The notes under the pieces are model-generated. The model was not told the DNA's origin, did no database searches, and saw nothing but the letters and a program-made list of their open reading frames with translations. Positions 25,723-28,815 of a stretch of DNA of 49,701 nt are shown here, one piece after another. The stretch is taken from NCBI GenBank assembly GCA_021298815.1, contig JAJTHE010000048.1:1-49701 (forward strand), written 5' to 3'. This DNA comes from Betaproteobacteria bacterium (GTDB lineage Bacteria > Pseudomonadota > Gammaproteobacteria > Burkholderiales > CAIKXV01). The first letter of the stretch is position 1; every line of letters begins with the position of its first letter. The translations under genes and the position numbers were made by a program.

Positions 25723-25794
25723 AGCGGTATAGTCCAGCGCATCCCGAGTCGTCCCGAACCCGATGGAGCCCCGATGCCCGTGCCTGCATCCGCC

Positions 25795-25830
25795 TGTGAG
25801 TGTGCGTCTGAGTGTGCACCTGAGTGTTTG
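25795..25830 (+). repeat. Three 12-bp direct repeats before the Bug receptor gene
   Basis: GAGTGTG recurs three times with 12-bp spacing (imperfect in the last copy). If the upstream ATG 25774 were used, it would encode an odd Cys-rich repeat (AsECASECAPECL). It lies after a TATAGT hexamer (25733-25738) and before the signal peptide start at 25876, so it probably belongs to the untranslated leader. Confidence 0.35.
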
Positions 25831-25875
25831 TCCCAGTCCGTGCCTGCTTCCGTTTCCGGGCCTGCATCGCGCGCC

Positions 25876-26865
25876 ATGCGCCGGCCGCGCACGATGCGCG
25901 CCGCTGCGTCCGTGCTCGGCGCTGCCCTGCTCGCCGGTGCGCTGCCCCTGCAGGCCGCCGAGGCGCCGTTCCCGACCCGTCCGATCCGTCTGGTGATCCC
26001 GCAGTCGCCCGGCGGCGGTTCGGATTCGATCGGCCGCCTCACCGCGCAGAAGCTGTCCGAGAACTTCGGCCAGAGCTTCGTCGTCGACAACCGCCCGGGC
26101 GCCGCCGGCATGCTCGGTGCCGAACTGGTGCGCCAGGCTACGCCCGACGGCTACACGATCCTGCTGTCTGCGATCGACACGATCACCGCGCCGCTGGTGA
26201 CGAAGAACGCGCCGTTCGATCCGGTGAAGCACTTCGCGCCGATCACCCAGCTCACCACCTCGCCGAACGTGATCCTGGTGACGCCGTCGTTCCAGGCGAA
26301 GACGATGCGCGAACTGGTCGACCTGGCCCGCGCGAAGCCGAAGACGATCGACTACGCGTCCTCCGGTATCGGCAGCATGCAGCACCTCGGCGGCGAACTG
26401 CTGAACGTGCTGGCGAAGATCGAGCTGTCCCATGTGCCGTACAAGGGCGGTGGACCGGCGCTGGTCGACCTGCTCGCCGGCCGGGTGCCGGTGATGGTGT
26501 CGGGTACCCAGGGCGCGCTGCCGTTCATCAAGACCGGCAAGGCGCGTGCGCTCGCGGTCACCAGCCCGAAGCGCAGCGCGACGATGCCCGACGTGCCGAC
26601 CGTGGCCGAGGCGCTGTCGCTGCCGGCCTACGAGGCGCTGAACTGGCAGGGCCTGTTCGCGCCGGCCGGCACGCCCGCACCGGTGGTCAAGCGGCTGGCC
26701 GACGAGACGATCAAGGTGCTCAACGCGCCCGACGTCAAGGCGCGCCTGGCGGAACTCGGCTTCGATCCGGTCGGCAACACGCCGGCCGCGTTCGCCGCGC
26801 TGGTGCTCGCCGAGCAGCGCAAGTGGATCAAGCTGATCCAGGCCGCCGGCATCAAGCCCGAGTAG
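25876..26865 (+). CDS. Bug/TctC-family periplasmic solute-binding protein
   Basis: Extracytoplasmic solute receptor of the tripartite tricarboxylate type, the large Bordetella/Burkholderiales 'Bug' family; about 329 residues from ATG 25876. The signal peptide is MRAAASVLGAALLAGALPLQ ending near AAEA. Family signature segments are RPIRLVIPQSPGGGSDSIGR, VVDNRPGAAGMLGAELV, HVPYKGGGPALVDLLAGRV and GLFAPAGTPAPVV. ATG 25774 would add an unlikely Cys-rich stretch before the signal peptide. No TctA/TctB partners are nearby, as is common for Bug proteins. It is first in an apparent operon with DUF1989, RidA and the glutaredoxin-DinB gene. Confidence 0.92.
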   Translation: MRRPRTMRAAASVLGAALLAGALPLQAAEAPFPTRPIRLVIPQSPGGGSDSIGRLTAQKLSENFGQSFVVDNRPGAAGMLGAELVRQATPDGYTILLSAIDTITAPLVTKNAPFDPVKHFAPITQLTTSPNVILVTPSFQAKTMRELVDLARAKPKTIDYASSGIGSMQHLGGELLNVLAKIELSHVPYKGGGPALVDLLAGRVPVMVSGTQGALPFIKTGKARALAVTSPKRSATMPDVPTVAEALSLPAYEALNWQGLFAPAGTPAPVVKRLADETIKVLNAPDVKARLAELGFDPVGNTPAAFAALVLAEQRKWIKLIQAAGIKPE

Positions 26866-26901: not shown

Positions 26902-27594
26902 ATGGCGAAGGCAGCAACCGTGAAGAAGGCGCCCGGCGCCGCCCCGTTCCCCAGGCCCGCGGTACCGAAGATCGCCGCACCGCGCGGCCTGCGCCAGGTG
27001 TCGTCGACCCTGGTCGATGCCGGCGGCTCCTGGGGCGCGAAGCTCCTGAAAGGCCAGGTGGTGCGCTTCATCGACCTCGAGGGCCAGCAGGCGGTCGACT
27101 TCCTCTGCTACAAGGCGAGCGACACGCGCGACCGCTACAACGCCGCCAACACGATGAAGATGGCCGAGAACCTGTACCTGAACACCGGTACCGTGCTCTA
27201 CGGCGAGTACGCGACGCCGCTGATGAAGGTGGTCGCGTCCAACTGCCCGAACCACGACACGATCGGCGGCTGCTGCAGCGTCGAGATCAACCAGCTGCGC
27301 TACGGCCGGCGCACCCACAGCTGCCGCTCGAACTTCCTGCACGAGCTGGGCAAGTTCCGCATGGGCGAGCCGGACGTGGTCGCCAACGTGAACTGGTTCA
27401 TGAGCGTGCCGATCGGCGCCGACGGGCACATGGCGATCTCGGACAGCCCGTCCAAGCCCGGCGCCTTCGTGGATGTCGAGGCGCTCGTCGACGTGCTGGC
27501 GGTGATCTCCAACTGCCCGCAGAAGTACAACCCGGCCTGCGGCTACGACCCGACGCCGGTGCAGGTCGAGATCTATTCCAGGACCGGGCGCTGA
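26902..27594 (+). CDS. DUF1989 (urea carboxylase-associated family) protein
   Basis: A 230-residue protein of the DUF1989 family, members of which accompany urea/guanidine and amidase pathways. It contains the conserved LEGQQAVDFLCYKASDTRDR, TGTVLYGEYATPLMKVV, SNCPNHDTIGGCCSVE and NCPQKYNPACGYDPTPV blocks, with several conserved Cys/His that could bind a metal. GAGGA precedes ATG 26902. It lies 36 bp after the receptor gene and 43 bp before ridA, so the set is probably cotranscribed. The reaction is unknown. Confidence 0.88.
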   Translation: MAKAATVKKAPGAAPFPRPAVPKIAAPRGLRQVSSTLVDAGGSWGAKLLKGQVVRFIDLEGQQAVDFLCYKASDTRDRYNAANTMKMAENLYLNTGTVLYGEYATPLMKVVASNCPNHDTIGGCCSVEINQLRYGRRTHSCRSNFLHELGKFRMGEPDVVANVNWFMSVPIGADGHMAISDSPSKPGAFVDVEALVDVLAVISNCPQKYNPACGYDPTPVQVEIYSRTGR

Positions 27595-27637: not shown

Positions 27638-28036
27638 ATGCCGATCATCCGCGGCAACCCGCCGGGCCAGAAGCACATGCGCGCCACGGTTTACAACCAC
27701 TTCGTGCGGGTCGACCAGCCGAAGAGCATGATCTTCATCTCCGGCCAGCTCGCGCGCGGCGAAGACGGGCAGATGGTCGGCGGCAACAGCATGCTCGAAC
27801 AGTCGCGCCAGGTCCTGCGCAACATCCAGCTCGCGCTGGAAGCCGCGGGTGCGACCATGGCCGACGTGGTGTGGACCACCGTGTTCACCACCGACATGCG
27901 CGAGTTCCGCGAGATCGTCGCCGCGCGCGAGGAGTTCTGGCGCGACAACCTTCCCACCAGCACGATGATCGAGATAAGCCATCTCACCGAGCCGGCGGCA
28001 AAGATCGAAGTGCAGGTCATCGCGGCGGTCGCATGA
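27638..28036 (+). CDS. RidA-family protein
   Basis: A 132-residue member of the Rid (YjgF/YER057c/UK114) family, enamine/imine deaminases or related binding proteins. Visible are FISGQLARGEDGQMVGG, SRQVLRNIQLALEAAG and VVWTTVFTTDMREF. The Arg that binds carboxylates in RidA enzymes (usually in a C-terminal RxxxE-type segment) is not clearly present, so it may be a Rid subfamily with another role. AGGAG precedes ATG 27638. Its stop overlaps the start of the next gene (ATGA), strong evidence for coupling to the glutaredoxin-DinB fusion. Confidence 0.9.
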   Translation: MPIIRGNPPGQKHMRATVYNHFVRVDQPKSMIFISGQLARGEDGQMVGGNSMLEQSRQVLRNIQLALEAAGATMADVVWTTVFTTDMREFREIVAAREEFWRDNLPTSTMIEISHLTEPAAKIEVQVIAAVA

Positions 28037-28815
28037 GCGCCGCGTCCGCCGAGTCGGGCTACGTGCTGTACGTGCAGCCTGGCTGAAGCAGCTGTCTCCG
28101 GGCGAAGGAGTTTCTTTCGCGACACCAGATCCCGTACCGGGTGGCCGACATCCGGCGCGACCCTGCCGACCTCGCGGCGCTGCATGCGTTCGGGGTGCGC
28201 AACCTGCCGGTGCTCGCACGCGGCAGCGAGTTCGTGTTCGGACAGCAGCTCGCCGACGTCGCGCGCTTCGTCGGCGTCGCGCTCGAGGTGCATGTACCGC
28301 TGGTGCCCGAGGTGCTGATTCAGCGCTGGACGGCGATCCTGCGCAGCACGCAGCGGCTGTGCGAACAGCTGCCGCTGCAGGCGATCGGCGAGCCGCCGAT
28401 CGAGGGCCGGCCCGGCACGCTGGGCGAACTCGCCTGGCATGTGTTCGGCATCGGCGACGGCTTCATCGAATGCGTCGAAGGACGCGAGCGCGACTGGGTG
28501 GGCGTGTCGATGCGCTTCCCGGAAGGCGGCGTGCCCGACGGCAGCATCGCGCGCGACTATGGCGAGGGCGTGATCGGACGCCTCGGGCAGTGGTGGCGTG
28601 ACGCCGACGGCGCAAAGCGCGCCGGCGCCGGAGAGGTCGATACCCCGCAGGGTCGGGTCACGCTGCACGCCTTCCTCGAGCGACAGACCTGGCACAGCGG
28701 GCAGCATGCGCGGCAACTGGCCGACGTGATCGAGCGGCACGGCGGCAAGGCCGAGTGGCCGGCGCGCGACCGCGAACTGCAGGGGCTGCCGATGCCCGTC
28801 GCCGTCTGGGGCTGA
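28033..28815 (+). CDS. Candidate selenoprotein: glutaredoxin-like domain (UxxC) fused to a DinB-like domain
   Basis: Read through one in-frame TGA at 28084-28086, this frame encodes 260 residues. ATG 28033 overlaps the ridA stop (ATGA). Residues 1-85 form a glutaredoxin/thioredoxin fold: strand GYVLYVQPG, then U18-S-S-C21 where TGA stands for the first Cys of CxxC, helix LRAKEFLSRHQIPYRVAD, and the cis-Pro segment VRNLPVLARG. Residues 90-260 look like a DinB-type four-helix domain with candidate metal ligands His136 (ELAWHVF), His221 and His225 (TWHSGQHARQL). After the TGA the frame continues unbroken with perfect domain logic, while starting at GTG 28141 would delete half the fold. A SECIS-like hairpin follows. 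Alternatives are a nonsense mutation or a base error of TGC/TGT. Sec-tRNA genes are not in the window. Confidence 0.8.
28084..28124 (+). promoter_or_regulatory. Candidate bacterial SECIS element
   Basis: After the TGA, GCGAAGGA (28102-28109) pairs with TCTTTCGC (28113-28120), including one G-T wobble, and leaves the triloop GTT. The loop begins with G, and 23 nt separate it from the TGA; both agree with the published bacterial SECIS consensus (apical G, about 16-37 nt spacing). An outer TGTC/GACA stem (28093-28096, 28121-28124) extends it with a 5-nt bulge. Confidence 0.6.

Follow-up and report, generated by a model that had tools for sequence, protein, structure and literature searches.

A 49,701-nucleotide stretch of a Betaproteobacteria bacterium (contig JAJTHE010000048.1, positions 1 to 49,701; hereafter the window) raises the question of how an in-frame TGA at 28084–28086 is read. 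This triplet is the one internal TGA of a forward-strand frame at 28033–28815, which spans 260 amino acids and ends in a second TGA (28813–28815). As codon 18, it stands at the first position of a CxxC-type redox site in what would be a fusion of a glutaredoxin domain with a DinB domain. A preliminary description of this DNA had proposed a selenocysteine (Sec) glutaredoxin at this locus. We conclude, with a probability of roughly 0.92, that this is a selenoprotein gene whose TGA 28084 specifies Sec. This reading draws on the two recognizable domains, the TGA in the place of a Cys, a conserved element downstream, the sel genes of the genome, and a TGA-form paralog beside selA.

The reading frame was as initially described. 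The ATG at 28033 overlaps the ridA stop codon (28034–28036) as ATGA, and the single TGA falls on the first residue of the CxxC site, with the frame open to 28815. The motif around it is VQPG-U-SSC-LRAKEFL, where Cys21 (28093–28095) takes the second position of UxxC. Pfam matched the read-through product, submitted with two residues beyond the real stop, to glutaredoxin over residues 11–68 (28063–28236; PF00462, 5.3e-9, 36.6 bits against a gathering score of 22.9) and to DinB_2 over residues 103–229 (28339–28719; PF12867, 3.6e-7, above the gathering score). Both domains also appear in the predicted fold, the second as a four-helix bundle. Open reading frame (ORF) calling with table 11 yielded only a product of 224 amino acids from GTG 28141 (28141–28815), and this start removes the active site, a loss that had been foreseen.

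Among the 120 database matches listed, the best 12 are 201–224 amino acids long and lack the glutaredoxin domain; the top match, P0002, has the length of the truncated ORF and is 91% identical. Full-length Cys fusion proteins rank below these truncated forms among the matches listed. Several of the listed Cys proteins bear the name “glutaredoxin/uncharacterized damage-inducible protein DinB,” so the architecture is already known to annotators and the novelty lies in the Sec form. The earlier impression of an unrecognized arrangement therefore stands for the Sec form and not for the fusion itself. A homolog search had been proposed as a check, and either Cys or TGA was found to align at position 18. 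In the alignment with 22 full-length Cys homologs, Cys18, Cys21, His136, His221, and His225 are invariant, the TGA of the window aligning to Cys18; Cys21 is invariant in alignments A1 and A2. The histidines His136 (28438–28440) and His221-x3-His225 (28693–28707), invariant in alignments A1, A2, and A3 and across 60 sequences, form a metal-type triad including an HxxxH motif and are predicted metal ligands.

The substitution pattern indicates, at the level of sequence, that both sides of the TGA are coding. Summed over all pairs of six close orthologs, the differences in codons 9–17 are 29 synonymous and 0 nonsynonymous, and those in codons 19–36 are 25 and 0. The corresponding counts are 176 versus 15 for the remaining glutaredoxin part and 662 versus 367 for the DinB part. 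Taken as a whole, codons 1–17 gave an even count (57.5 synonymous, 56.5 nonsynonymous), because the first residues vary.

Downstream of the TGA, a predicted hairpin resembling a selenocysteine insertion sequence (SECIS) occupies 28102–28120, 16–34 nt past the TGA, with an 8-bp stem and a GUU loop; its core CGAARGAGTTTCTTTCG lies at 28103–28119. A hairpin just downstream of the TGA with a small apical loop containing G is a feature of bacterial SECIS elements, according to the available part of PMC1088965. Across the 42 TGA-form genes compared (41 of the 42 genes found in the order, leaving out the divergent L106, together with L024 and excluding G885), the stretch CGAA[AG]GAGTTTCTTTCG is invariant except for one A/G position, and the element folds with a stem of 7–8 bp and a GUU loop. 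Seven Cys-form genes have different codons at this position and no conserved element. These seven represent seven of the nine TGA-less-form genomes. The other two, G111 and G078, stand outside the comparison: L071/L120 (G111) was dropped by the motif filter though its Cys is printed and it has no internal stop, and the Cys of G078 was taken from the absence of an internal stop. When 38 genomes were searched for the CGAARGAGTTTCTTTCG pattern, it occurred 42 times, always in the 27 TGA-form genomes and inside the 42 TGA-form genes, once in each, whereas a reversed control occurred 0 times; the same search found it absent from the nine TGA-less-form genomes, G005, and G885. The element forces the codons TTT and CTT. 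Counted from codon 14 after the TGA in the same genes, TTT accounts for 53/336 Phe codons and CTT for 51/868 Leu codons, and the window gene past that point uses TTT for 0/8 Phe and CTT for 0/18 Leu. The energy of the hairpin is the exception among the sequence tests: its z-scores were unremarkable (−0.33 to +0.82), and 844 of 5,000 synonymous versions were equally stable, which is not significant. As these energy tests were weak, we used codon and pattern conservation instead. Rfam returned nothing relevant, either for the whole window at the gathering threshold or for 28060–28180 at E up to 10.

The genome of the window (88% complete) carries a tRNA with anticodon tca (UCA), called tRNA-SeC by ARAGORN, along with matches to selA (580 bits), selB (409 bits), and selD (410 bits). 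A search for selA, selB, selC, and selD had been suggested as a check on the Sec reading, and all four were found, with selA, selB, and selC grouped on contig C23. On the same contig, a second TGA-form paralog (C23:40104–40859; L047, L084) shares the strand of the selA match and lies 52 bp upstream of it, and the paralog's best 13 database matches likewise lack the glutaredoxin domain. The selD gene (L017:1501–2439) also has a TGA in frame, within GGGUGCK. Together with the Cys homologs and the retention of TGA and element in orthologs and paralogs, these genes sustain the proposed Sec glutaredoxin as a sequence-based prediction.

We then examined how widely the fusion occurs. A scan of a genome collection returned seven loci, five of which are TGA-form fusions (L020–L024), L020–L023 being the same loci as in G010, G002, G004, and G003. 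In a 60-genome search that included the window's own, the TGA form was present in 10 of the 11 genus members, G005 being without it, and in 3 of the 49 other genomes (G012, G015, and G055), with a TGA-less form in G025. A profile search of 399 genomes of the order gave matches in 35. The TGA form accounted for 42 genes, spread over 27 genomes, with an identical TGA position in all 42. Nine rows of that search were without TGA: eight in eight further genomes and one fragment (profile positions 187–252) in G295, itself a TGA-form genome. Draws of 369 genomes from the class and 398 from the phylum matched only G000 (the window's genome) and the Cys form G517 in the former, and G000 and G885 in the latter. 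The order, class, and phylum searches score first-look candidates only (6 or 7 per genome), so that a missed gene is possible. G885 (L083), a one-contig genome related at the level of phylum only, has a TGA-form fusion, a tRNA-Sec, and a weak hairpin. Separately, two short glutaredoxin-like proteins of one deltaproteobacterial genome (L025:5001–5219 and L026:3079–3261) have a TGA in PGU-LFS and similar sequence after it; their best NCBIfam match is Uxx_star, at 65.3 and 60.0 against a cut-off of 66.

Presence of the TGA form follows that of selA. All 27 TGA-form genomes have selA over the cut-off versus 2 of 9 TGA-less-form genomes (G245 and G274), and versus 80 of the 372 order genomes without the TGA form (107/399 overall). 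The Fisher p for TGA form and selA is 2.5e-17, a value to be read in light of the relatedness of the genomes, since the counts are without kinship correction and the 42 genes analyzed form 14 clusters at 70% identity. A tRNA-Sec was found in 25 of the 27 TGA-form genomes, in 3 of the 9 TGA-less-form genomes (G111, G245, and G274), and in G005 and G885. The TGA-form gene lies on the same strand as selA and within 5.1 kb of it in 23 of the 27 genomes, within 0.3 kb in 12; in the remaining four, the two are on different contigs. On a tree of 104 rows, four changes between U and C are needed, three of them forced by starred branches, so the tree lends no support to a single origin of the Sec label. 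The Cys proteins P0014–P0017 are nested among Sec forms and may represent a return to Cys, at forks that are partly weak; uncertainty attaches to two long branches, L083 and L106.

How the enzyme might work can be sketched from these parts. TGA 28084 would be read as Sec with the help of the hairpin 3′ of it, which would bind SelB. Sec18 would act as the attacking selenolate, and Cys21, in the role of what is called the resolving Cys, would resolve the selenenylsulfide. The three histidines could coordinate a divalent metal in the manner of bacillithiol S-transferases. A low-molecular-weight thiol, free or as a conjugate, would then be bound or activated by the DinB domain and be reduced or exchanged by the glutaredoxin domain. 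Electrons may come from a thioredoxin-reductase-like CADC enzyme in those relatives whose sel cluster includes its gene. The reaction as a whole, a Sec thiol-redox site serving an S-transferase-type site with three histidines, is a tentative proposal by analogy with known enzymes.

A different function, which we regard as unlikely, is that the fusion belongs to selenium metabolism, reducing selenite-derived thiol adducts and handing selenide to SelD or SelA. Such an enzyme would account for the copy in the sel cluster, and the same-strand proximity to selA described above speaks for it. Other copies, that of the window included, stand away from selA, and 7 of the 9 genomes with a TGA-less form have no selA over the cut-off. 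Moreover, the available text of PMC1794560 reports proteobacteria whose sel cluster adjoins a single selenoprotein gene, fdhA, which has no selenium-handling role. A bolder version, that the fusion is the resident sel-cluster selenoprotein of several betaproteobacterial families, processes selenium-thiol adducts, and feeds selenide to SelD/SelA, strikes us as slightly less likely still. If it were true, the Sec machinery would depend on its own product.

Turning to the reading of the codon, the protein might begin at GTG 28141, with the upstream part a degraded or regulatory remnant. Table-11 calling and the 201–224-amino-acid top matches without a glutaredoxin domain favor this start, but 0 nonsynonymous versus 54 synonymous differences in codons 9–17 and 19–36, the 22 aligned Cys homologs of full length, and the one TGA kept at the same codon in 42 genes make it very unlikely. 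TGA can in principle be read through by other routes, and a changed code or a suppressor might insert Trp or Cys in place of Sec. This we consider more remote still: ridA and the fusion gene both terminate with TGA, so TGA is also a stop here, the aligned residue is Cys and not Trp, and the tca tRNA called tRNA-SeC and the linkage to selA point to Sec. That the TGA is a sequencing error for TGC or TGT, one base away, or marks a pseudogene has a negligible chance, as the same TGA recurs in assemblies L020–L024 and across 27 of the order's genomes, linked to its downstream element and with purifying selection on both sides.

The surroundings of the gene differ between the window and the sel clusters. 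In the window, the fusion is preceded on the forward strand by genes for a TctC-type solute-binding protein (25774–26865), a DUF1989 protein (urea amidolyase associated protein like; 26902–27594), and a RidA family protein (27638–28036), the last overlapping its start codon. The RidA/DUF1989 setting noted in the preliminary description is real here, and six of the seven copies of the window paralog in the genus have the DUF1989-RidA pair ahead of them (G009, L102, is without it), but this setting is local to close relatives; as a general neighbor of the family it gives way to selA. In G055 (L085:7434–9571), RidA, DUF1989, and TctC genes run convergently toward a TGA-form gene from a different subfamily, an orientation unlike that of the window. 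Just upstream of the fusion in 15 of the contexts compared is a tRNA-thiolation-type gene (tRNA_Me_trans, one representative), presumably MnmA, and in six (L091, L098, L110, L111, L112, and L113) selB is followed by a thioredoxin-reductase-like gene with the CADC motif. The spacers between fusion and selA, judged by eye, differ in each of three contexts. In one, a 654-codon frame on the opposite strand between the two genes (L097:6936–8897, minus strand) contains a TGA in frame, within a UGAC motif, and partly matches the UGSC family (seleno)protein, scoring 50 bits where the cut-off is 125.

If the Sec reading is right, it adds a selenoprotein family whose active site present gene calling cuts off, and joins selenium chemistry with the DinB/S-transferase-like (STL) fold. 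Work on SelB and SECIS elements would gain a short element of 17 bases that hardly varies, for which the Cys family offers a matched control. In 2006, fdhA was the sole selenoprotein known from Sec-decoding Betaproteobacteria, according to the part of PMC1794560 available. Beyond fdhA, which was not searched for here, the fusion would place another selenoprotein by selA in 23 of the 27 genomes, so that one can test whether this enzyme is tied to the maintenance of Sec use.

Finally, we compared the fusion with known systems. Literature searches and reviews, as far as their accessible portions extend, describe no selenoprotein of glutaredoxin-DinB architecture, with a mention in the new-selenoprotein papers of Haft et al. 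being possible. Table 1 of a 2026 review (PMC13188914; 119 families), in the portion available, lists glutaredoxin and no DinB fusion, and the word DinB has 0 occurrences in the available main texts of PMC13188914, PMC9312934, PMC1088965, and PMC12013277 (deep-Sep). Among the selenoprotein glutaredoxins (PF00462, UxxC), cGrx1 of C. oremlandii (PDB 7c10/7c12) has chains of 84 amino acids, whereas the window protein has 260, a DinB-fold domain being added after the glutaredoxin domain. It scored below the cut-off of all eight NCBIfam glutaredoxin and Uxx-star families listed and, with its DinB domain, is no single-domain protein of these types. A glutaredoxin-like Sec domain is shared with the Uxx-star families, among them the HUGP/GUXX-star selenoprotein, itself a fusion. 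The score against NF041212 was 27.7 for a cut-off of 66, and the HUGP fusion model gave no match to P0001 at E 0.01; for L034 its score was 22.6 of 325 bits. With the STL superfamily (BstA, mycothiol S-transferase, MDMPI), the window protein shares the predicted four-helix bundle, and its His/HxxxH triad resembles H67, H160, and H164 of BstA in the available text of PMC5815605; the metal site of mycothiol S-transferase has two His and one Asp in that of PMC10950700. Neither text, to the extent available, mentions a glutaredoxin domain or Sec in STL members. The Cys-form glutaredoxin-DinB fusion has the same architecture and three histidines and differs in having Cys for Sec, no conserved element (seven genes), and selA missing over the cut-off in 7 of 9 genomes. 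The Sec fusion is thus a predicted new selenoprotein family by architecture, built from known parts and standing beside a Cys fusion that is already annotated.
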